Assembly (NCBI RefSeq): GCF_011799805.1
Contig: NZ_WXUB01000002.1
Location: 1,178,001 to 1,242,000, forward strand
DNA length: 64,000 nt
Reading direction: 5' to 3'
Source: Maribellus sediminis
GTDB taxonomy: Bacteria; Bacteroidota; Bacteroidia; Bacteroidales; Prolixibacteraceae
Below, in pieces: positions 240-47,783 of the stretch (within the stretch, counting starts at the first letter, position 1; the number at the start of each line of letters is the position of its first letter). Under the pieces are notes generated by a model. It saw only the letters and a program-made list of their open reading frames with translations, made no database searches and was not told where the DNA came from. The position numbers and the translations under genes are program-made.

Positions 240-425
240 ATTTTTGAAAACTGTGACTGAAAACTGTGACTGAAGGATTGAGGAATTGAAGGACTGAAGG
301 ATTGAAGGATTGATAAATTGTTGTTTTCAGACTTGCCAATTGTTAATTGCCTACTTTCAACTGCGACTGAAAACTGATCACTGAACACTGCCTGCTCAAA
401 GCTTGCGACTCACAGCTCATAGCTC
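240..425. repeat. Intergenic word-repeat block A
   Basis: The 332-base gap between the divergent yggS-like gene and pabB is mostly low-complexity sequence. Runs of AGGAYTGA words (about 260-312) are followed by GATAAATTGT, a TTGCCAATTGTTAATTGCC stretch, then ACTGCGACTGAAAACTG words and an AGCTCATAGCTCGCAGC stretch. The same words recur at 2028-2300, 33330-33985, 39356-39440, 39745-39850 and 47093-47378. No ORF here has coding character. Confidence 0.75.
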
Positions 426-1423: not shown

Positions 1424-2015
1424 AACCATTAAATGCCACGACGGCAAACTCTATAACCTCGAATTTCATCAAAGCCGTTTTGCGATTGCCCGGAAACAGC
1501 TTTTTCCGGATGCTGAGCCCATTTCACTTTCCGGGGTCATTAATATTCCGGAATCGGCAAAAAGCGGATTGTTCCGTTGCCGGGTAATTTATTCTGAAAT
1601 AATTGAAAAAATCGAATTCGTACCTCACGAATACCGGCCCCTAAAAAGCCTGAAACTGGTGGAAGACAATTCCATCGATTACAGCTACAAATACACCGAC
1701 CGCGATCGTTTGACTCAACTTTTTGAGCAGCGCGCCGATTGCGACGACATTTTGATTGTTAAAAATGGCTGCATCAGCGACAGCTTCACCGCTAATCCCG
1801 TTTTCTGGGATGGCACCCAGTGGTGGACGCCCAACACTCCCCTGCTGCCCGGCACCCAACGTGCCCGACTGATTGCAGAAGGCAAAATAAAAGTTTGCCG
1901 GGTCACTCCTGTCAATATAATTAACTACAGCAAGGTTGGATTGATCAATGCCATGCAGGATTTGGAGAATATGCCTGTGGTTGAGATGTCAGATGTTGTG
2001 ATGCTGGATACTTGA
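1404..2015 (+). CDS. pabC: Aminotransferase class IV, probable aminodeoxychorismate lyase (PabC)
   Basis: A PLP enzyme predicted to release pyruvate from 4-amino-4-deoxychorismate to give p-aminobenzoate. The 203-residue protein has the fold-type IV layout: a candidate PLP-Lys in IDYSYKYTDR (K96), DDILIVKNGCISD, and the LLPGTQR loop. It is shorter than E. coli PabC (about 270 residues), with a compressed N-terminal region. Its ATG lies inside pabB with a 20-base overlap, which indicates translational coupling. Class IV aminotransferases also include branched-chain and D-amino-acid enzymes, but the pabB overlap favours PabC. Confidence 0.82.
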   Translation: MSRYLLETIKCHDGKLYNLEFHQSRFAIARKQLFPDAEPISLSGVINIPESAKSGLFRCRVIYSEIIEKIEFVPHEYRPLKSLKLVEDNSIDYSYKYTDRDRLTQLFEQRADCDDILIVKNGCISDSFTANPVFWDGTQWWTPNTPLLPGTQRARLIAEGKIKVCRVTPVNIINYSKVGLINAMQDLENMPVVEMSDVVMLDT

Positions 2016-2027
2016 TACTGGATGCCG

Positions 2028-2300
2028 GGATTGAAGGATTGAACAAAGGAATGAGTAAATGCGTAAATGCGGAACAAAACTGTTAAATGTTAAACTGATA
2101 AATTGTAAATTGAGAAGAGTTGCTAGTTTGTTACACATTTGCCAATTGTTAATTGCCTACTGCCAACTTATCTCTGCGCTTTGCCACAAACTTTTAAGAA
2201 CAACACTAAAAACCGCGACTGTCAACTGGGAATGTTTTATTGCCGAACTGATAAATTGTTCTCCTCAGACTTACTACTTACGGCTTACTACTCGTGGCTC
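2028..2300. repeat. Intergenic word-repeat block B
   Basis: The 354 bases between pabC and the convergent Gfo/Idh/MocA gene carry the same word family as block A in the same direction: GGATTGAACAAAGG, GTAAATGCG, GATAAATTGTAAATTG, TTGCCAATTGTTAATTGCC, CTACTGCCAACT and CTCGTGGCTCGTGGCTCGC. Two plus-strand ORFs of 61-85 codons lie wholly within the repeats and look spurious. The block ends at the terminator at 2325-2348. Confidence 0.75.
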
Positions 2301-30977: not shown

Positions 30978-33275
30978 TCAGGATTTTCCGTGTAACATCT
31001 GTAAAACAAGTTCTTTGGTTAATTTTCTTCCGGCCGCTTTGTTTCTGATTTCTTCGAACGAAAACTTAAAGTCGCAGCCTGTTTTCCAATTGCTGCATCC
31101 GTATGCCGTTTTCCCTTTTATGATCGTGCCGCCACATTTGGGGCATTTGGGCGATGAATTCTCTGTTTGCTTTCCTGCTGAAGTTGTAGCTTCAAATTCA
31201 ACATTAAAATCGGAAGTGAGTTGCAAAATCCCTTCTACTTTTTTATCCCCCAATTGAAATCCTTTAAGTTTAGTGGTACTTCCTTTTGTGATTAAGCGCT
31301 GCACCTGCTTTTCTGTCAACTTCTTATCCATAAAAACAAAGGGCAATCTAAAATCGCAGCCGGCTTTCCACTCGCTGCAACCGTAGGCATTTTTCCCTTG
31401 CAGCACATTGCCTTTCTTGCATTTCGGACAAGTCATGCCATCATCTGAAGCCTTTTCCTTCTTCTTAGGTTTTTCAGATTTCTTCTTTGCCAGTTCGGGA
31501 GCGGCCAGTATTATAGAAGAACGATCGTTCAGCACTTCAACAACCAGATCGTACACCATCCGCTTCATTTCGTAAATAAAGGTTGCGGCACTGTATTCTC
31601 CCTGTTCAATATCGCGCAGGCGTTTCTCCCACTGCCCGGTTAACTCAGCCGATTTTAGCAATTCATTCTGAATAATATCAATAAGCTGAATACCCATTTT
31701 TGTTGGATGGATTTGCTTCTTTTGCCGCTCGATATATTTTCTGCGGAACAGGGTTTCGATTATGGCAGCACGTGTTGAAGGACGTCCAATTCCGTTGGCT
31801 TTCATCAGGTCGCGGAGTTCTTCGTCATCCACATTTTTTCCGGCCGTTTCCATGGCGCGCAACAAGGTTGCTTCAGAATAGTAGCGGGGCGGTTTTGTTT
31901 CTTTTTCGGTAAACGAAGGTTCGTGCGGTCCGTGTTCGCCTTTCACAAAAACGGGTAAGATCGTTTCGCCATCACCGTTTTTTGAATTTTCATCCTGAAA
32001 CAAAACCCGCCAACCGGCTTGCAAAATTTGTTTTCCGGTGGCCGTAAATTGCACGGTTTCCACTTCGGCTGTCACCTGCGTTTTGGCTACTTTACAGTCG
32101 GGGTAAAAAGCTGCCAGAAACCGTCGGGTAATGGCATCGTACACCTTTTGTTCGTTACCTCCAAGAAGTTTTTCTTCGCCGGTTGGAATGATGGCATGGT
32201 GATCGGTTACCTTTTTATCGTTAAAAACTTTCGATGACTTGGGAATCTTTTTTTGCAAAAGCGTTTCAGTAAACTGCCCGTAGTTTTTTAAGCCTTTTAA
32301 AATTCCCGGAACTTTGGGATATAAATCGTTAGGAAGAAAAGTGGTGTCAACGCGCGGATACGTTACGGCTTTCATTTCGTAAAGGCGCTGCACAATTTTT
32401 AGCGTTTCGTCGGCAGTAAATCCAAAACGTGTATTGCAATGCACCTGTAAACTGGTGAGGTCGAATAACTTAGGCGCATATTCTTTCCCGTCCTTTTTTT
32501 CAACATCGGTGATGTAAAGATCCTTACCCGCAACCAGGTTAAACAGTTTTTCGCCATCATCCTTTTTGAAAAATTTGCCTTCGGAATTACTAAAAACGGT
32601 ATCACGGTAAATGGTTTGTAACTCCCAGTAGGGCTGCGGCTGAAAGTTTTCAATCTCGTAATGCCGGTTTACAAGCATAGCAAGTGTTGGCGTTTGCACC
32701 CGCCCGATTGACAAAACCTGTTTGTATCCGCCATATTTCAGGGTAAACAATCGCGTGGCATTCATTCCCAGCAACCAGTCGCCAATTGCGCGTGAGCTTC
32801 CGGCATAATACAACTGATCGAAATCGGTAGCGGGTTTCAACTTTTTAAAACCTTCTTTAATGGCTTCGTTGGTCAGCGACGAAATCCACAGGCGTTTCAC
32901 GTCACCTTTATAGCCCGCTTCTTTCAATACCCATCGCTGGATAAGCTCACCCTCCTGGCCGGCATCACCGCAGTTAATCACCTGATCGGCTTTATCGAGT
33001 AGGCTTTTAATCGTTTTGAATTGTTTGGTAACGCCACTGTCACCGGTCATAACCTTGGTTTCGAAATGCTTGGGCAACATGGGAAGTGTTTGAAGGTCCC
33101 AGCGTTTCCATTTTTCGTCGTAGTCTTCCGGCGGCCAAAGCGTACAAAAGTGGCCAAAAGTCCAGGTAACCTGGTATCCATTTCCTTCGAAATAACCATC
33201 CTTACGCGAACCTGCACCAATTACCTGTGCAATTTCTTTGGCAACACTTGGTTTCTCTGCAATACAAACAATCAT
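30978..33275 (-). CDS. topB: DNA topoisomerase III
   Basis: A type IA topoisomerase of 765 residues that relaxes and decatenates DNA through a 5'-phosphotyrosine. The Toprim domain opens with MIVCIAEKPSVAKEIA and continues to NCGDAGQEGELI. The active-site Tyr is in VTYPRVDT. Two C-terminal zinc-ribbon-like repeats (CPKCKKGN...GCSEWKAGC and CPKCGGT...GCSNWKTGC) and a KxTLxxxxV-like tail follow. I chose the ATG at 33275 because six extra residues precede the conserved MIV start. The -7 box abuts this ATG. Confidence 0.92.
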   Translation of the reverse strand: MIVCIAEKPSVAKEIAQVIGAGSRKDGYFEGNGYQVTWTFGHFCTLWPPEDYDEKWKRWDLQTLPMLPKHFETKVMTGDSGVTKQFKTIKSLLDKADQVINCGDAGQEGELIQRWVLKEAGYKGDVKRLWISSLTNEAIKEGFKKLKPATDFDQLYYAGSSRAIGDWLLGMNATRLFTLKYGGYKQVLSIGRVQTPTLAMLVNRHYEIENFQPQPYWELQTIYRDTVFSNSEGKFFKKDDGEKLFNLVAGKDLYITDVEKKDGKEYAPKLFDLTSLQVHCNTRFGFTADETLKIVQRLYEMKAVTYPRVDTTFLPNDLYPKVPGILKGLKNYGQFTETLLQKKIPKSSKVFNDKKVTDHHAIIPTGEEKLLGGNEQKVYDAITRRFLAAFYPDCKVAKTQVTAEVETVQFTATGKQILQAGWRVLFQDENSKNGDGETILPVFVKGEHGPHEPSFTEKETKPPRYYSEATLLRAMETAGKNVDDEELRDLMKANGIGRPSTRAAIIETLFRRKYIERQKKQIHPTKMGIQLIDIIQNELLKSAELTGQWEKRLRDIEQGEYSAATFIYEMKRMVYDLVVEVLNDRSSIILAAPELAKKKSEKPKKKEKASDDGMTCPKCKKGNVLQGKNAYGCSEWKAGCDFRLPFVFMDKKLTEKQVQRLITKGSTTKLKGFQLGDKKVEGILQLTSDFNVEFEATTSAGKQTENSSPKCPKCGGTIIKGKTAYGCSNWKTGCDFKFSFEEIRNKAAGRKLTKELVLQMLHGKS

Positions 33276-33282
33276 AGCGCTG

Positions 33283-33290
33283 CAAATATA
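33283..33290 (-). promoter_or_regulatory. -7 box for topB
   Basis: On the minus strand this is TATATTTG, an exact match, ending 7 bases before the topB ATG. The transcript would start at, or within two or three bases of, the start codon, as for pabB and rluF. Confidence 0.6.
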
Positions 33291-33329
33291 CAAGTATAGC
33301 TGTGGCTTTTAAAAGCGAGTTATTAACAG

Positions 33330-33985
33330 GGGGGGGAGGAAAGATTGGGGGAGATTGAAAATAGATTGATGCAGATTGAAGGAGATTGTGAAATTGTAAA
33401 ACTGATAAATTGTGAAATGGAGAAAGAGTGGAGTTTGTTCTAACACATTTGCCAACTAAGACGTATGACTGAAGGACTGAAGGACTGAGGGATTGAAGGG
33501 CTGAACACTACGACTGTGATTGCCAACTGCTGCTTTGCCAATTCAAGGATTGAGGGACTGAAGGATTGTGGGATTGAAAGTTCGAATGCGTTAATGCTTT
33601 AATGCGTTAATATTCTGGAAACTGAGACTGAATACTGAGACTATTTTTGCCAACTGCAACTTTGCCTATTGCCAATTGTGAGGGACTGAAGGATTGAAGG
33701 TTCTAATGTAAAATTGCTTTTATGCTAAAATGCTGTAATATTCTGTCAACTGAGACGTAAGACTGATGGTTTGATGGACTGATGGACTGAAAGATATAAT
33801 TTTGAGACTTACTGAAAACTGAGACTGAATACTGAGACTATTTTTGCCAACTGCAACTTTGCCTATTGCCAATTGAAGTACTGAAGCATCGAATGCGCAA
33901 ATGTTTTCATATTCTGGAAACTGTGACTGAAAACTGAGACTGCGACTGATCACGGAACTCTGAACTCTGAACTTTAAACTCAAAT
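33330..33985. repeat. Intergenic word-repeat block C, with a 60-bp exact direct repeat
   Basis: About 690 bases between the topB promoter and the thioredoxin-like gene are filled with the word family: GATTGATGCAGATTG, GGACTGAAGGACTGAGGG, ATGCGTTAATGCTTTAATGC, ACTGAGACTGAATACTGAG, TTGCCAACTGCAACTTTGCC and CTGAACTCTGAACTTTAAAC. A 60-base stretch occurs twice without a mismatch, at 33619-33678 and 33816-33875, 197 bases apart. No coding signal is seen in any frame. Confidence 0.85.
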
Positions 33986-33991
33986 CAAACT

Positions 33992-34576
33992 TCACCACAC
34001 CAAATCGCAGGCGTCAGCGGGCATCCAGTGCTTGTGCTTACCTTCCCATTTCACATTGCAGCCAATAGGATTTGTTACCGGCACCGAAATGGGTTTACCG
34101 CTTGTCAGTTCTTCGAGTGCACGAACCAGGTCGTTTACTGTTATTTTCGATGGATCGCGCGGACTATCCACTCCCCTTCCTGTGTAAACCAATTCACGAT
34201 TTTCATCAAAAACATAAAAATGGGGTGTCCGTAGCGCTCCGTAAGCAAGCGCAATTTCCTGCGATTCGTCGTATAAGTATTTCCACGGAAAATTGTGTTC
34301 TTTCATACGCGCCACCATGTGCTCGAAATCATCTTCTTCGTAGGTATTTTTACTGTTCGAGTTGATGCCGACAAAATCCACTCCCAGAGGTTTAAACCGC
34401 TCAGCAGTTTTTCGCGTAACCTCATCGCTGTTAATCACATAAGGACAGTGATTACAGGTAAAAAACACCACCAAATATTTCGAGTCTTTAAAACTTTCCA
34501 GCGAATAAGTGTTACCGTCAGTTGCCGGAAGATTAAAATCGATTGCTTTTTTTCCTATTTCGAGTGTAAATGCCAT
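33992..34576 (-). CDS. Thioredoxin-like (AhpC/TSA-type) protein
   Basis: A 194-residue redox protein with a thioredoxin fold. The active-site CNHC (C41 to C44) follows the strand YLVVFFT, and the family's [26 protein letters not shown] contains the cis-Pro. It resembles cytosolic thioredoxin/redoxin-like proteins of about this length, and there is no signal peptide from the chosen ATG at 34576. A longer ORF adds 21 residues that do not fit the fold. The partner is unknown. It diverges from ligA. Confidence 0.85.
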
Positions 34577-34668
34577 GTCGTGTTTTTTGTTGTTTAAAAG
34601 TAAAAGGAATTTCGCCTTACATTTGTTTAAGTCAAACAAAAATCTTTGTCTATTTTTAGCGAAACTGA

Positions 34669-38809: not shown

Positions 38810-39355
38810 ATGAGAACGTTTATTACCGCAATACTGGTGCTTCTTACTTTGGGGACATTTGCGCAGCAGGGACTGCAGCTCATGCTTCCCGAAGAAGATT
38901 CGGTTGACCTGAATACGGTGCAGCCAGCGCCATCGGTTTTGCTGAATGAAAGCGTAATTACGAATCCCGATTTCCTGATGTACCAGCTTCAGCCTGTTCC
39001 TTTAAGTATCGAACAAGGCTATATGAACCGGTACACGGTAAATTCCAGCGTTTTAAAAATGCCGGAGATCAACTACATCCCGTCGATGTCGCTTGGAATG
39101 ATCTCACCATTTTATTCAAATGCGCAAATTTTTGGAGGCTCGTCTACAAAACTGAACGATAAACTTACCATTGGAGGATTCAGTTACGGAGCCAACTCCA
39201 TTATGACGGCACCTCTGCCGAACCGGCAAAACGGGAATTTCGATTCGTATGGTTCTACCATGTTTATGCAGTACAAGGTTTCAAAGAACTTTAAAATTGA
39301 AACCCGTGTAAGTGTTGGGCAGCAACAGGGACCTCCCCCACCTCCGGGATTTTGA
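38810..39355 (+). CDS. Small exported protein, function unknown
   Basis: A 181-residue protein with a signal peptide (MRTFITAILVLLTLGTFAQ). The second half has alternating polar/hydrophobic strands rich in Gly and Tyr: SLGMISPFYSNAQIFGG, LTIGGFSYGANS, YGSTMFMQYKV and FKIETRVSVGQQ. This resembles a few strands of an outer-membrane beta-barrel or a barrel-associated protein. It ends in PPPPPGF. No family recognised. Confidence 0.6.
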   Translation: MRTFITAILVLLTLGTFAQQGLQLMLPEEDSVDLNTVQPAPSVLLNESVITNPDFLMYQLQPVPLSIEQGYMNRYTVNSSVLKMPEINYIPSMSLGMISPFYSNAQIFGGSSTKLNDKLTIGGFSYGANSIMTAPLPNRQNGNFDSYGSTMFMQYKVSKNFKIETRVSVGQQQGPPPPPGF

Positions 39356-39440
39356 AGGATTGAAGGACGGAAGGATTGAAGGACGGAGGGATTGAAGGAG
39401 ATTGATGCAGATTGATGCAGATTGAAGGAGATTGATCCGA
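39356..39440. repeat. Intergenic word-repeat block D1
   Basis: Directly after the stop of the previous gene come GGATTGAAGGACGG units, then GATTGATGCAGATTGATGC repeats. The latter also occur near 33350-33390 in block C. Same direction as the other blocks. Confidence 0.75.
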
Positions 39441-39481
39441 GATAGAATGTCACAAATCCACAAGTTGAAAGATTACATAAC

Positions 39482-39653
39482 AGATTCCTCAGTTCCCGAA
39501 TTATCGGGACAGGCAATACCTCTTTCGGAATGACAAGAAAAGTTCTTCTTAAGCCGCGCTTGATCTTCACTATTTGAAGAAATAAAAAATAGCGCGGTCG
39601 AAACATACTCAATATTTGTCATCCCGACCCGTCAACTGACGGAGAGGGATCTC
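39482..39653. repeat. Pair of inverted TGTCATYCCGA elements with a central hairpin
   Basis: Two copies of a TGTCATYCCGA...GAGRRATCT element point away from each other: one read leftward from 39535 to 39482, the other rightward from 39617 to 39653. Each contains an internal hairpin (TTCCCGA/TCGGGA and CCGTCA/TGACGG). Between them lies an 81-base spacer with CCGCGCT and AGCGCGG arms. This looks like a MITE-like unit without a transposase gene. Similar GTCAT...GAGGGATCT sequences are common between Bacteroidota genes. Confidence 0.6.
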
Positions 39654-39744
39654 AAATTTCCGCGCATCGTCCATCCAGAATCCAATTATAAATTTTCGGC
39701 ACTTAATCCGAAACGAAGAATTGTGCCAACTTAAGTTTGCCAAT

Positions 39745-39850
39745 TGCCTACTTAGAGAACGAGTGATTGATGGGAGATTGAGAAAAGATTGATAGAGCTT
39801 GAAGGAGACTGAAAACTGAACTTTTCATTATCTTTAAACCCTATACTTTA
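39745..39850. repeat. Intergenic word-repeat block D2
   Basis: TTGCCAATTGCCTACTTAG near 39737, then GATTGATGGGAGATTGAG units and a closing ACTGAAAACTGAACTTTTC stretch immediately before the helicase gene, ending in the TTTAAACATTAAACTTT words seen at other block ends. Confidence 0.7.
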
Positions 39851-39866
39851 AACATTAAACTTTCGA

Positions 39867-42800
39867 ATGCTGACTGTTTACAAAGCTTCTGCCGGTTCGG
39901 GAAAAACCTTTCGTTTGGTTGTTGAATACCTCAAACTTATTCTGGAAAATCCGTTTAATTACCGGCATATACTGGCGGTTACCTTTACCAACAAGGCCAC
40001 CAACGAAATGAAGAGCCGTATTCTGGAGCAACTTAATTTTATTGCCATCGGGAAAGATTCGGCCACCATTCAGCAGATTCAGAAAGAAACCGATTATTCC
40101 GAACAATTCATTCGATCGCGTGCTCAGCAGGTTCTGAAAAATATATTACACGATTACAACCGTTTTTCCATTAACACCATCGATTCCTTCACGCAAAAAG
40201 TGATTAAATCGTTTAACCGCGAGCTGGGAATTTCGCCGAATTTCACCTTGGAACTCGATACAGATATGATCCTGGAGGAAGCTGTTCAACGTCTGTTTGC
40301 GAAGATTGGTGAAGACAAGAACCTCCTGGACTGGTTACGAGAATACAGCCGCGAACGTATTGAGGAGAATTTTAGCCAGCAGCTCGATGCCGATATCAAA
40401 CGGCTGGGAATCGAGCTTTTTAAAGAACGTTTCCAGGTGTTCTTCCCCGAAGACGGCGAAACCGTTTATACCCGCGAAAACCTTCAAATCTTTGTAAAAG
40501 ATGTGCAGAAGGTGAAAACTTCCTTTGAGGCTACACTTAAAAACAAGGGCAATCAGGCGGTTACTGAAATGGAAAAAGCAGAACTAACACCTGCCGATTT
40601 TTCGGGTGGTGCCAGTCGCAGTGTGGGTGCATTCCTGGTGAAGCTGGCAAATGGCGATCAGCCTAATTTTACCAATACCGTAAGAAATGCAGCTGAAGAT
40701 GCCGAGAAATGGGTAGCTCAATCAAAAAAATACCGCGAGGATATTGTACGTGTTGTGGAAAACAGTCTGCTGCCCGTTCTTCAGGAAATCATTACTTACT
40801 ATGATCAAAATTTTGCACGATACAATACTGCCATTGCCGTATTGAAACAAATACGAACGCTTGGTATTCTTATCGATTTAAAGGAGGAAATTAAGGACCT
40901 GTTACACGAAAAAGGAATTCTGCCACTGTCGGATTCAAATCTTTTGCTGAGCAAAATTATCGGGCAAAGCGATTCACCCTTTGTGTACGAAAAAATAGGG
41001 AATTACTACCACCATTTTATGCTCGACGAGTTTCAGGATACATCGGGTTTGCAGTGGCAGAATTTCAGACCACTGGTGATTAACTCGCTCGCCGAAGGAA
41101 ACGACAACCTGATTGTTGGCGATGTGAAACAGTCGATTTACCGCTGGAGGAACAGCGACTGGAACATTCTGGCCGAGAAGCTTTATACTGAATTTACAGC
41201 GGATCAGCTAAAAGACGAAACCTTGAAATTCAATTTCCGGAGCGACCGGAACATTATTGAATTCAACAACACGATCATTGAAGCTTTTGTGGCTGAATTC
41301 GAGAACCGGCTGTTCAGTGAAATTGGGGAAAGCGAATCGCATCTTCAGCGCTTTAAAACGATTTACAACGAGCACCTGCAGCAACCCGGAAATCCGGATG
41401 CGCCACAAAACGGTTTTATTCAGGCTAATTTTCTTGAGCCTGAAGATTTTGAAGAACTGACGACACAAAAGCTGGTTGAGCAGGTAAAACTGTTACAGGA
41501 CCAGGGAATCAGTGCGGAAGAAATCGCTATTCTGATTCGGAAGAACAGCGAAGGAACGAAAATCATTGAAGCTTTTCTGAATGCGGCGAAACTTCCCGGG
41601 AATAAGAATTACAACCTGTCGGTACTATCGAACGAGTCGCTGTTTTTGAATGCTTCAAAAGGGGTACTTTTTATCGTTCACATGCTTGAATTCCTTGTCG
41701 ATCCCGACGATAAAATAGCGAAAGCCACCTTGCTTTTTATGTGGCAAAGCTGGTTGAAGCCACAACTTCAAACAAAAGGAATTGTGTTAAATAAAGCTGA
41801 AGCTCAACAACCATCGCTTTTTGATCAACCTGAAACATGGAAATTAAGCAAAGATTTTGAAGCCGAATTTGAGCTTGAACTTGGCGAACTTCTTGAAAAT
41901 ATACGCTCAAAAGTTTTGCTGGCCTCACTCGATGAAGCCGTGACACAGATCGCTTCTCAAACAGGCATTTTCAGGCTGGAAGCCGAATTGCCCTTTGTTC
42001 AAACGCTGATGGACAAAGCCGGAGAATTAAAATCATCACTTTCAAACGATTTGTCGAACCTCTTGCTTTGGTGGAACGAAAAAGGCTACAAAACCTCGGT
42101 GAATGTGAATGAAGAAGTGAGTTCAATCCGCTTGCTGACGGTGCATAAATCAAAGGGCCTCGAATACAAGGCAGTATTGCTCCCCTTTTTCAACTGGAAC
42201 ACCGAGCCCGGTGCCAATCAAATGCCAATTCTTTGGTGTGAACCGCAGAGTTCGCCTTTTAACCAGTTCCCGCTGCTTCCAATCCAGTCTGGAAACACCA
42301 TGAAAGAATCGGAGTTTGCACCGATCTACTTCGAAGAAAAAGTCAATAATTACATCGATACATTAAACCTGGTTTATGTAGCATTCACGCGTGCCAAATC
42401 AGTGCTTATCGTCAACTCGCCGCAACCAAAGCTAAAAAGAGACGGAACGGAATCTGAATCCACCAGCATGGATTATTTATTTTACAGTGCCCTGCAAAAC
42501 TCCGTCATCACCGATAAATATGGAAAGGGACTGGATTCCGAAACTAAAACATTTGAGTACGGTTCATTCAAAGCTGAGCCGAAAAAAGCAGATGAAAACC
42601 AGACCTTGTTAATTGGCAAATATGCCTTCAACGATTTTTCGGAACGCATAAAGCTGCGCCTGAGTGGCGAAGACTTTTTGTTGGAAAGCGACAAACAACA
42701 TTCGGAAAAGAATATCGGGAAAATTATTCATGAAATACTGTCGGCAATTGAAACATCGGAAGATGTTGCCCCGGCGTGTTTGCAGGCATTAAAAGCAGGA

Positions 42801-43133
42801 AAAATAAACGACGAAGAATACCGAACCATTGAACAATCCATAAGTAAAAATCTTCAACTAGATACCGTTAAATCGTGGTTCGACGGCTCTTTTGAGGTGT
42901 TGAACGAGCACGATTTGTTGAGTAATTCAACGCTTCTTCGCCCCGACCGAATTATGATCTCGGGTGATTCAGCGGTTGTGGTGGATTACAAAACGGGTGA
43001 AAAAATCCCGACAAAATACAACCGGCAAATCGAGCGCTATGCCCAAACCCTGAAAGATACCGGGTTAAAAAATGTAAGTGGTTATTTGTGGTATTTAAGC
43101 TCCAACGAAGTAGAAAAAGTGTGTGAGCTTTAG
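39867..43133 (+). CDS. UvrD-type helicase/nuclease, AddA/RecB-like
   Basis: A 1088-residue DNA double-strand-break processing enzyme of superfamily 1A. The Walker A motif ASAGSGKT is at residues 7-14, HILAVTFTNKATNEMK follows, Walker B is LDEFQDTSG, and LTVHKSKGLEYKAV and YVAFTRAK are the C-terminal helicase motifs. A PD-(D/E)xK nuclease core ends with VVDYKTGEK and YLWYL near residue 1060. Bacteroidota often place a partner PD-(D/E)xK protein (AddB-like) next to it; none is present here. Confidence 0.88.
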   Translation: MLTVYKASAGSGKTFRLVVEYLKLILENPFNYRHILAVTFTNKATNEMKSRILEQLNFIAIGKDSATIQQIQKETDYSEQFIRSRAQQVLKNILHDYNRFSINTIDSFTQKVIKSFNRELGISPNFTLELDTDMILEEAVQRLFAKIGEDKNLLDWLREYSRERIEENFSQQLDADIKRLGIELFKERFQVFFPEDGETVYTRENLQIFVKDVQKVKTSFEATLKNKGNQAVTEMEKAELTPADFSGGASRSVGAFLVKLANGDQPNFTNTVRNAAEDAEKWVAQSKKYREDIVRVVENSLLPVLQEIITYYDQNFARYNTAIAVLKQIRTLGILIDLKEEIKDLLHEKGILPLSDSNLLLSKIIGQSDSPFVYEKIGNYYHHFMLDEFQDTSGLQWQNFRPLVINSLAEGNDNLIVGDVKQSIYRWRNSDWNILAEKLYTEFTADQLKDETLKFNFRSDRNIIEFNNTIIEAFVAEFENRLFSEIGESESHLQRFKTIYNEHLQQPGNPDAPQNGFIQANFLEPEDFEELTTQKLVEQVKLLQDQGISAEEIAILIRKNSEGTKIIEAFLNAAKLPGNKNYNLSVLSNESLFLNASKGVLFIVHMLEFLVDPDDKIAKATLLFMWQSWLKPQLQTKGIVLNKAEAQQPSLFDQPETWKLSKDFEAEFELELGELLENIRSKVLLASLDEAVTQIASQTGIFRLEAELPFVQTLMDKAGELKSSLSNDLSNLLLWWNEKGYKTSVNVNEEVSSIRLLTVHKSKGLEYKAVLLPFFNWNTEPGANQMPILWCEPQSSPFNQFPLLPIQSGNTMKESEFAPIYFEEKVNNYIDTLNLVYVAFTRAKSVLIVNSPQPKLKRDGTESESTSMDYLFYSALQNSVITDKYGKGLDSETKTFEYGSFKAEPKKADENQTLLIGKYAFNDFSERIKLRLSGEDFLLESDKQHSEKNIGKIIHEILSAIETSEDVAPACLQALKAGKINDEEYRTIEQSISKNLQLDTVKSWFDGSFEVLNEHDLLSNSTLLRPDRIMISGDSAVVVDYKTGEKIPTKYNRQIERYAQTLKDTGLKNVSGYLWYLSSNEVEKVCEL

Positions 43134-46723: not shown

Positions 46724-47092
46724 ATGAAATTTCTAGGTAATATTATCTGGCTGGTTTTTGGTGGTTTCGCCATTTTTCTGGAATACATGCTGGCCGGCCT
46801 GGCACTTTGTGTTACAATGGTAGGTATTCCGTTTGGTATTCAATCGTTCAAACTTGGTGTATTGGCCCTTTGGCCCTTTGGTCAGAAAATTGAATACATG
46901 GATTATGCTCCGGGCTGTTTATCAACCATCATGAATATTCTTTGGTTTTTTATTGGCGGTATCTGGATCATGCTGACCCACGTTTTGTTTGGATTGCTGC
47001 TGGGAATCACCATCATCGGAATTCCGTGGGCGCGACAACACTTTAAAATGGCTTCACTGGCTTTGACTCCGTTTGGAAGAAGACTCGTGTGA
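46724..47092 (+). CDS. YccF-domain inner-membrane protein
   Basis: A 122-residue protein made of two YccF (DUF307) repeats. NIIWLVFGGFAIFLEYMLAG with IPFGIQSFKLGVLALWPFG is the first; NILWFFIGGIWIMLTHVLFG with IPWARQHFKMASLALTPFG is the second. Each has two hydrophobic helices. The function of the family is unknown. It ends where word-repeat block E begins. Confidence 0.88.
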   Translation: MKFLGNIIWLVFGGFAIFLEYMLAGLALCVTMVGIPFGIQSFKLGVLALWPFGQKIEYMDYAPGCLSTIMNILWFFIGGIWIMLTHVLFGLLLGITIIGIPWARQHFKMASLALTPFGRRLV

Positions 47093-47378
47093 GAATTGAA
47101 GGACTGAAGGTTTGATGGAGTGTCAAATTGAAGGAGTGAACAATCGAATGCGTAAATGCTTTAATGCCAGAATGCTTAAATCGCTTCTGATTATTGAGGC
47201 TTAACTCAGAGACTGTGTTTGCCTACTGCAACTTTGCCTACTGCCAACTGAAGGAATGAAGGATTGAGGGATTGAATGCTGAAATGCCTGAATGCTATTA
47301 TACTTAAATATTCTTGAATCTGCGACTGCGACTGAATACTGCGACTGTTCTCTGAACCCTGAACTTTAAACTCTGAAC
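47093..47378. repeat. Intergenic word-repeat block E
   Basis: The whole 286-base space between the convergent yccF-like and YciI genes is built of the word family: GGACTGAAGG, AATGCGTAAATGCTTTAATGC, TTTGCCTACTGCAACTTTGCC, GAAGGATTGAGGGATTGAA, TGCGACTGCGACTGAATAC and CTGAACTTTAAACTCTG. The direction is the same as in blocks A-D. No terminator-like hairpin was recognised within it. Confidence 0.8.
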
Positions 47379-47783
47379 TTACTTAATAACTGTTCCTTTA
47401 GCTCCCCACCAATAAAATGCTTCCATACTTAAGCGGCCTTTTTTAACTGCCGGATCTTCTGCTTCCAGTTTGAGTGCCTCATCCACGGTTTCCACGTCGA
47501 AGATCAGCAAGCCACGATGATCGCCACCGCCATCAAATGGCCCGGCAACAATTAGTTTACCCGATTCGGCCAGTGTATTCAAATGCGCCAAATGTTGTTC
47601 CTGTATTTTAGCTGCTTCAACAGAATCCTGACTTCGGGTTTCTCCCTTGTTGAGCAACATAAAAACATAACGTTTCATGGTGTAAGTAGTGTCCCCCTCG
47701 GTGTAGGAAAATTCGCGCTGATCCTGAGCATTCACAATTCCGGTTACAACCAGCAAAAGGAACATTAAGAATATGTACTTCAT
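47379..47783 (-). CDS. Exported YciI-like protein
   Basis: A 134-residue protein with a signal peptide (MKYIFLMFLLLVVTGIVNAQ) and a ferredoxin-like YciI domain: YVFMLLNKGETR, then QEQHLAHLNTLAESGKLIVAGPFD with the conserved His, GLLIFDVETVDEA, and ending VEAFYWWG-like (MEAFYWWG). YciI proteins are usually cytosolic; the exported form is common in Bacteroidota. It follows msrA by 10 bases on the same strand, so the two are probably cotranscribed. Confidence 0.82.
   Translation of the reverse strand: MKYIFLMFLLLVVTGIVNAQDQREFSYTEGDTTYTMKRYVFMLLNKGETRSQDSVEAAKIQEQHLAHLNTLAESGKLIVAGPFDGGGDHRGLLIFDVETVDEALKLEAEDPAVKKGRLSMEAFYWWGAKGTVIK

Follow-up and report, generated by a model that had tools for sequence, protein, structure and literature searches.

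A dispersed family of intergenic word arrays anchored at gene 3' ends in Maribellus sediminis and its relatives

The gap between the topB and redoxin genes of Maribellus sediminis is occupied by a run of short, slightly varying words, and similar runs stand in other gaps of the same region. What kind of element is this, and how can its words persist? The window analysed here is the whole 64,000-nucleotide stretch, positions 1178001-1242000 of contig C6, in a genome of 5.6 Mb and 13 contigs. An initial annotation, made from the sequence, had proposed a dispersed family of degenerate 7-8 nt words, and the gaps that it named were divided into six blocks for testing (240-425, 2020-2300, 33330-33985, 39350-39440, 39740-39865 and 47093-47380). 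On direct reading, the six have a common vocabulary. Words taken from the other five account for 19-58% of a given block when the plus strand is read and for 0-2.5% when the minus strand is read (leave-one-out), and none of 2000 random window segments, scored on their best strand, matches any block, which bears out the proposal that one vocabulary fills all the gaps named. The higher of the lag-7 and lag-8 self-matches was equalled by 0 of 1000 dinucleotide shuffles in each of four blocks, by 3 of 1000 for 39740-39865 and by 61 of 1000 for 39350-39440, the last not significant alone. Tandem Repeats Finder gave periods of 7, 8, 10, 13, 14, 15, 16 and 24 in the blocks. The arrays of varying 6-8-letter words are a real repeat family, and we regard this as confirmed. 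The features are listed below, with coverage by words of the other blocks (forward, reverse), random segments scoring as high (of 2000) and shuffles with as high a lag-7/8 self-match (of 1000).

240..425, plus strand: word array before the chorismate-binding gene (452-1423, plus); 0.467, 0.011; 0/2000; 0/1000.
2013..2300, plus strand: word array after the aminotransferase gene 1404-2015, in a gap whose flanking genes converge; 0.189, 0.000; 0/2000; 0/1000.
33330..33985, plus strand: main array, between topB (30978-33293, minus) and the redoxin gene (33992-34639, minus); 0.275, 0.005; 0/2000; 0/1000.
33542..33765, plus strand: composite element, copy 1; nhmmer E 2e-62 (sequence in the training set).
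33761..33983, plus strand: composite element, copy 2; nhmmer E 2.5e-45 (sequence in the training set).
33615..33698, plus strand: duplicated module, repeated at 33812-33893; 91.7% over 84 columns (self-BLAST).
39353..39440, plus strand: AGGAYTGA / GCAGATTGA array; words 0/2000; periodicity alone 61/1000.
39740..39866, plus strand: array with GGAGATTGA and ACTGAAAACTGAACTTT words; 0/2000; 3/1000.
47090..47380, plus strand: complete composite element between the convergent genes yccF and YCII; nhmmer 47104-47380, E 5.9e-82 (in the training set).

The gap that holds the first array is probably divergent, as a minus-strand gene seems by eye to begin near 120. Its words follow the order ACTGnGACTG, AGGAYTGA, TTGCCAAYTG, CACTGAACACTG and then AGCTCGCAGCT words, and there is a profile match at 220-390. 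The main array ends adjoining the redoxin stop codon and also repeats a 140-column stretch at 74%; on its topB side there is a run of eight G at 33329-33336. By reading, the composite element of about 290 nt has the order AGGAYTGA, AATGCGTA, ACTGnGACTG, TTGCCAACTG, AGGAYTGA, AATGC, ACTGnGACTG and a CTGAACT-like end. The full order is common to window 47104-47380, C6:1305 kb (with a hairpin before the end) and C10:13 kb, and a copy at C10:34 kb is without the first AGGAYTGA/AATGCGTA pair; separate gaps do carry the same series, as had been suggested for the modules. The ends of five aligned copies are ragged by eye. Composite modules of about 100-290 nt, built of 6-8 nt words, are found both as tandem copies and scattered over separate gaps.

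The form of the arrays also agrees with the earlier view that they are neither CRISPR, microsatellite nor coding sequence. A CRISPR was rejected as the words are degenerate, have a 6-8 nt pitch and enclose no spacers, and a scan of ten block-flanking genes gave a single match with a cas name, to the Cas4-like nuclease domain of an AddA-like helicase. Only a minority of words fall inside called open reading frames (11/76 of D1, 11/66 of D2). Nine of the ten genes scanned beside or near the blocks match a Pfam family, and Rfam gave no match at gathering score in the whole window.

The family is dispersed. A profile built from four composite-order gaps and part of the main block gave 45 matches in 39 stretches (714 kb) of this genome and none in the reversed control; of these stretches, 20 are contiguous and come from C6 1-400000, one is the window, and 18 were selected because they surround word sites. 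The same profile found 10 matches in D. orientale and 9 in D. mangrovi; for Maribellus and family f30 the counts are 18 and 14, both including repeats (L016 overlaps L223, and L154-L164 overlap L234-L253), and the reversed sequence of every set gave none. The blocks are not confined to the window. Different loci match each other over as much as 199 nt (85%) or 211 nt (73%). Word clusters in the unselected 400 kb of C6 are largest at 348-376 kb, and elsewhere they contain at most 10 words; reversed 8-mers form five clusters of 7 words in the same 400 kb, so small clusters there mean little. At C6:348-352 kb, GGAYTGA and ACTG words lie on opposite strands; in the same place (L112 8550-12250) arrays flank small genes and there are long near-identical module copies. 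Modules are repeated, by reading, within the arrays of L276, L279 and L286, and in D. mangrovi (L199, G062:C27:211778-212869) AACTGCGACTGAAAACTG recurs several times at 172-nt steps in a long tandem of a composite module. Against known plasmids the main block had no match, and one cluster piece and one D. orientale piece had only matches of 31-47 nt, judged low-complexity. With regard to a possible phage vector, exact array phrases were found in only 5 and 12 stretches of a viral-contig collection, and an exact long array phrase had 0 matches in a genome contig collection.

The arrays are anchored at gene 3' ends. Distinct gaps in six sample groups gave 999 3' edges to compare with 1099 5' edges, duplicates being removed only if letter-identical; the edges come from a simple caller of open reading frames (at least 90 aa, longest first), so some are wrong, and a rerun with genes of at least 200 aa (714 and 788 edges) kept the results. 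Within 100 nt, ACTGnGACTG is enriched at 3' over 5' edges (p=8e-12; reversed motif 0), and so is GGAYTGA (p=3e-7), whose reversed form gave 9 at 3' edges against 16 at 5' edges; for the longer genes the values are p=2e-10 and 4e-7. ACTG words occur in 8/203 divergent, 91/693 co-directional and 40/153 convergent gaps, in stretches many of which were chosen for ACTG phrases, which inflates the absolute fractions and should not bias gap types or strands. Divergent and convergent gaps have similar median lengths (194/180, 188/221 and 204/163 nt in three groups), so length is not the cause of the scarcity in divergent gaps. Behind the stop codon, GGAYTGA words start at medians of 7 and 12 nt (58 for 3 f30 edges), CAGT-type words at 23.5 nt here, 15 in kin and 11 in f30, and ACTG-sense words later, at 46-75.5 nt.

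Often the stop codon is itself part of the first array word. In the window, the aminotransferase TGA (2013-2015) sits within words GATACTTGATACTGG, the first TGA of the array at 39353..39440 (39353-39355) is the stop of gene 38810-39355, and the TGA of yccF (47090-47092) opens the array at 47090..47380. Edges with GGAYTGA/AGATTGA use TGA in 8/20 cases here (base 45/315, p=0.003) and in 9/19 in kin (76/539, p=4e-4), while CAGT edges use TAG in 4/7, 15/34 and 26/53 cases here, in kin and in f30 (p=0.048, 0.014 and 1.5e-4). With genes of at least 200 aa this effect of dialect on the stop codon is weaker and kept (TGA 7/17, p=0.004; TAG 13/31, p=0.035; f30 TAG 19/42, p=0.017). Some called reading frames end inside arrays, one of them with CAGTCTCAG words as its coding side, which favours finding stops in words. 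That the words serve as stops in every frame was rejected, as the favoured sense strand (CAGT type) appears to have no stops in its words.

The strand of the words is biased with respect to the gene. Behind stops, ACTGnGACTG is antisense in 95 cases and sense in 42 (p=7e-6), with ratios of 9:2 in this genome, 12:4 in D. orientale, 16:7 in D. mangrovi, 9:3 in Maribellus, 2:1 in other kin and 47:25 in f30; for genes of at least 200 aa it is 75:29 (p=7e-6), and before starts 30:26. GGAYTGA has the opposite bias, 42 sense against 19 antisense (p=0.004; 29:14 and p=0.03 for the longer genes). After stops TGCCAAYTG gave 1:8 (p=0.04) and ACTGNAAACTG 32:67 (p=6e-4), and TGAACTYT, AATGCGTWA and GATACTNGAT no significant strand bias (p 0.09 to 1); these values are uncorrected for the seven motifs tried. 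When both strands are used in one gap, CAGT comes before ACTG in 34 of 35 gaps, one has the order CACA, and ACTG-then-CAGT alone is never found; six of these gaps are in kin, the rest in f30 and none in this genome. Co-directional gaps with words in one orientation are CAGT-sense to ACTG-sense 22:10 in kin and 17:9 in f30, and 3:5 here, so that the co-directional polarity is absent in this genome's own gaps. The initial annotation saw the direction of the blocks as independent of the flanking genes. As a generalisation this is wrong, since arrays track the 3' ends of genes and words of the ACTG dialect are polarised with respect to the gene. That all blocks lie on the plus strand is correct within the window only, since GGAYTGAAGGAYTGA is found 26 times on the plus and 31 times on the minus strand genome-wide.

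The words follow a grammar that is shared beyond the order. In the stretches from this genome, ACTG cores are 6 nt apart 88 times and 7 nt apart 91 times, against 12 and 16 for the reversed core GTCA. The filler at spacing 6 is CG in 27, AG in 25, TG in 8 and GG in 6 of the 88, and at spacing 7 (n=91) AAA (15), AAT (12) and CCA (11) are commonest and ATA occurs twice. A genome of f30, G237, has CG 33, AG 27 and TG 23 of 95, and AAA in 40/60; its loci were fetched by a phrase that fixes part of the grammar and leaves the CG/AG/TG letter free. Among 296 Bacteroidota genomes searched, RACTGNGACTGNAAACTG is present in 15, namely this genome and 14 from f30, of which 12 belong to genus g31, and the copy number per genome reaches 61; the reversed pattern was found once in all 296. 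According to its kinship label f30 is of the same class and another order than this genome, and g31 uses the same grammar, often as hairpins; we take f30 and g31 to be Flavobacteriaceae and Flavobacterium. Every species has its own mix of dialects. For instance, GGAYTGAAGGAYTGA has 57 copies here, 66 in G032 and 0 in 19 of the 37 genomes of the genus, and CACAGAGTTNCACNGAGA has 0 here and up to 8 elsewhere, being present in 14 of the 37 (36 congeners were searchable).

The same gap can be compared across relatives. A redoxin match was found in 29 loci, this genome included, with topB adjacent in 14. In all 13 congeners with topB adjacent the redoxin gap is filled with words, in dialects unlike the one of this genome and with modules repeated in some, and read in the redoxin sense CAGT exceeds ACTG in 11 of the 13, with a tie in 2. 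In the three other loci that have both yccF and YCII the words of that gap are mainly on the same strand (forward/reverse 48/17 in L016, 44/1 in L018 and 49/1 in L030); the yccF/YCII and redoxin sets overlap, as the redoxin gaps of L015, L017, L020 and L024 match L281, L278, L282 and L284 in length and ends. Behind a gene that we take from its sequence to be mazG, compared in loci of 30 among 33 matching genomes, words (at least 2 cores in the first 150 nt) are mainly CAGT-sense in 14/30, this genome included, and mainly ACTG-sense in 1; in the remaining 15, cores are few or absent. In none of the 29 relatives was the far-side gene found within the fetched flank. Congeners are not independent, and the mazG and redoxin counts thus overstate the evidence. 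In the closest ortholog pair the gap identity is 0.972, against 0.961 at 231 four-fold sites, and the 358 aligned columns contain no indels. Pairs further apart differ by large indels, and no meaning can be read into their identity, since word arrays will align with one another by chance. Orthologous gaps thus retain arrays while dialects and modules turn over, and single copies may decay at a near-neutral rate, to judge from this one close pair.

The reading that we prefer, with a probability of about 0.55, is a turnover-driven, non-coding family of word arrays anchored at gene 3' ends, which is no transposon of the usual kind and is kin in kind to the TAACTGA and STRR heptamers. Slippage at the 7-8 nt pitch, duplication of modules of 80-200 nt and copying between similar arrays, by gene conversion or template switching, would continually rewrite the arrays, so that words could persist while single copies decay near-neutrally. 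The periods of 7-8 and the module duplications support the slippage-like growth that the initial annotation suggested; slippage itself, like the copying between arrays and the cause of the polarity, is something we infer. Arrays may have settled behind genes because an insertion at that place leaves promoters and coding DNA intact, and once an array reached a gene end, the gene would stop at the first in-frame stop within a word. Given the strand preference, a step of copying or growth may be tied to the transcribed 3' end; alternatively, one orientation in the mRNA could be better tolerated or useful. Against turnover, the order CAGT-then-ACTG and the grammar common to two orders look more constrained than drift predicts; GGAYTGA prefers the opposite sense, TGAACTYT has no clear bias, and this genome's own co-directional gaps lack the polarity. 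A copying enzyme was not found, nor an empty/filled pair of sites showing the insertion step, and many of the stretches were picked because they hold words. More tentatively, we could imagine that two Bacteroidota orders, and perhaps the phyla with TAACTGA repeats as well, share a gene-3'-end word system with the grammar ACTG-HG-ACTG-NAA and a preferred polarity versus the gene that has ended, the arrays being single-armed in one lineage and CAGT...ACTG hairpins in the other. If templated copying at transcribed 3' ends renewed it more quickly than mutations wear it down, such a system would be a new class of self-renewing non-coding repeat, neither transposon nor plain slippage.

The main rival to turnover is a function at the 3' end of the mRNA, which we find possible but doubtful. 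Sense RNA of CAGUCnCAGUUUnCAGU words, alone or paired in hairpins with ACUG words, would be bound by a protein or would influence termination, the trimming of 3' ends or the release of ribosomes. This fits the start of CAGT-type words near the stop, the scaling of array frequency with the number of gene 3' ends in a gap, the polarity of 95:42, the order in two-stranded gaps, the single grammar in two orders and a 28-bp hairpin (z -13) in one f30 gap. It is less easily reconciled with the near-neutral rate in the close pair, with the few or absent cores behind mazG in 15/30 and with the absence of GGAYTGAAGGAYTGA from 19/37 genomes of the genus. Pieces of the window blocks are moreover unstructured, their folds being no more stable than those of shuffled sequence and in some cases less so (z -1.5 to +2.1), and by eye several f30 stems are T-rich before and A-rich after, which is not the layout of an intrinsic terminator, while terminator-like stems lie beside or in the loop of the f30 pairs L161, L174, L179 and L237. 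The arrays as intrinsic terminators (a G+C stem and a U run) were rejected; no significant stem was found in the window pieces folded, and the f30 stems were judged by eye.

It is quite unlikely that the arrays are Rho-utilisation (rut) sites, where unstructured, C-rich and G-poor RNA ends transcription. Their place after stop codons, the unstructured RNA and the regular UC steps on one strand would suit such sites, but in the first 100 nt of sense RNA the mean of C minus G is near zero at CAGT-type edges (+0.027, -0.048 and +0.005) and negative at GGAYTGA edges (-0.154 and -0.107; -0.02 for 3 f30 edges).

Repeats bound to a replication strand, with the fork setting their direction, are very unlikely. 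GGAYTGAAGGAYTGA does form runs of one orientation (all minus at C6:348-376 kb, all plus at C6:1040-1212 kb and all minus on C5). The replication-strand bias proposed earlier is nevertheless not supported by the complete chromosome of D. orientale, where the ACTG phrase is on both strands on both skew arms (25 sites, hand-counted clusters 7+/5- and 4+/5-, with the arms judged only from the skews of 20 sampled stretches). In C8 and C10 the orientation flips within kilobases to tens of kilobases, and D1 and D2 are on opposite strands at C6:348-352 kb.

REP and BIME elements with RAYT are extragenic palindromic repeats near gene 3' ends, and the arrays resemble them in being extragenic, near gene 3' ends and palindromic in many f30 copies, but they are single-armed and unstructured in the window and have no link to RAYT. 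Mobilisation by RAYT/Y1 transposases is most improbable: Y1_Tnp genes are present in 11 of 12 genomes searched, but also in 3 of the 4 searched f30 genomes without the ACTG phrase, the phrase is within about 1.5 kb of just 1 of 20 Y1_Tnp loci, and the composite copies have ragged ends. The RAYT-gene test thus gave REP no support, in line with the initial annotation.

Other known repeats share single traits with the family. The BOX elements of Streptococcus pneumoniae are modular and interspersed with a variable number of inner modules, but they consist of conserved 45-60-mers with defined ends, while the modules here are word arrays in which defined ends were not found. STRR heptanucleotides of cyanobacteria are intergenic heptamer arrays dispersed in a genome, as the arrays are here, and by description they differ from ours in phylum, words, composite order and gene-end polarity.

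In the open library searched no description of these words was found, and only MacGregor 2015 (PMC4679880) is close. In that paper, TAACTGA heptamers are intergenic direct repeats with an ACTG core and no known mechanism, patchily found in some Beggiatoaceae, one other gammaproteobacterium, 15 Cyanobacteria and five Bacteroidetes. Their main genome uses a single exact heptamer, whose one-base variants are seldom repeated, and most copies there lie directly before start codons; indels between close Cyanothece strains are mostly in 7-nt steps, and in some genomes the heptamer is mixed with others (PMC4679880). The likeness lies in intergenic direct repeats at heptamer pitch with an ACTG core, which the blocks also are. 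The arrays here differ from these repeats: they come in many dialects in which some positions are fixed and others free, have composite modules about 290 nt long, lie at gene 3' ends, show an antisense polarity and include CAGT...ACTG pairs. The local form is not TAACTGATAACTGA, as the filler ATA makes up 2/91 at ACTG spacing 7; judged by these fillers, and not by a word count, the arrays are no exact TAACTGA tandems. Nor are most of them upstream of starts, ACTG and GGAYTGA words being 3'-enriched (p=8e-12 and 3e-7).

While the one close case found is a single heptamer, reported with no mechanism (PMC4679880), the arrays here have measurable rules: 3'-end anchoring, stops that depend on dialect, gene-relative polarity, CAGT before ACTG, species dialects and a grammar common to two orders. 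These rules make it testable in cultivable species what writes and renews the words. They also carry a warning, as a neighbouring array may rewrite the last codons and the stop codon of a gene.

Three side observations follow. The array at 39740..39866 runs up to the start codon of the AddA-like gene directly downstream (39867-43133), which has UvrD domains and a Cas4/PDDEXK-like nuclease end and whose protein is 48-63% identical to records named Draconibacterium, Maribellus, Tangfeifania and Mariniphaga, which places the bacterium as Prolixibacteraceae-like within the Bacteroidales; the gap upstream of the gene is 0 to 482 nt across kin loci. A contig labelled Candidatus Competibacteraceae (L072) encodes an AddA-like protein of Bacteroidales type and may be misbinned. 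Some gaps with word arrays also hold a second dispersed intergenic family, GTCATTCCGAnnGAGGnACGACnGA...GATCT-like, found at 6 places in this genome with at most 2 mismatches, none of them in the window (reversed control 0). Its sites include L112 9968-9992 and 11659-11683 (minus) and the gaps of L276, L278, L279, L282, L285 and L288, and by eye window 39480-39680 resembles it.
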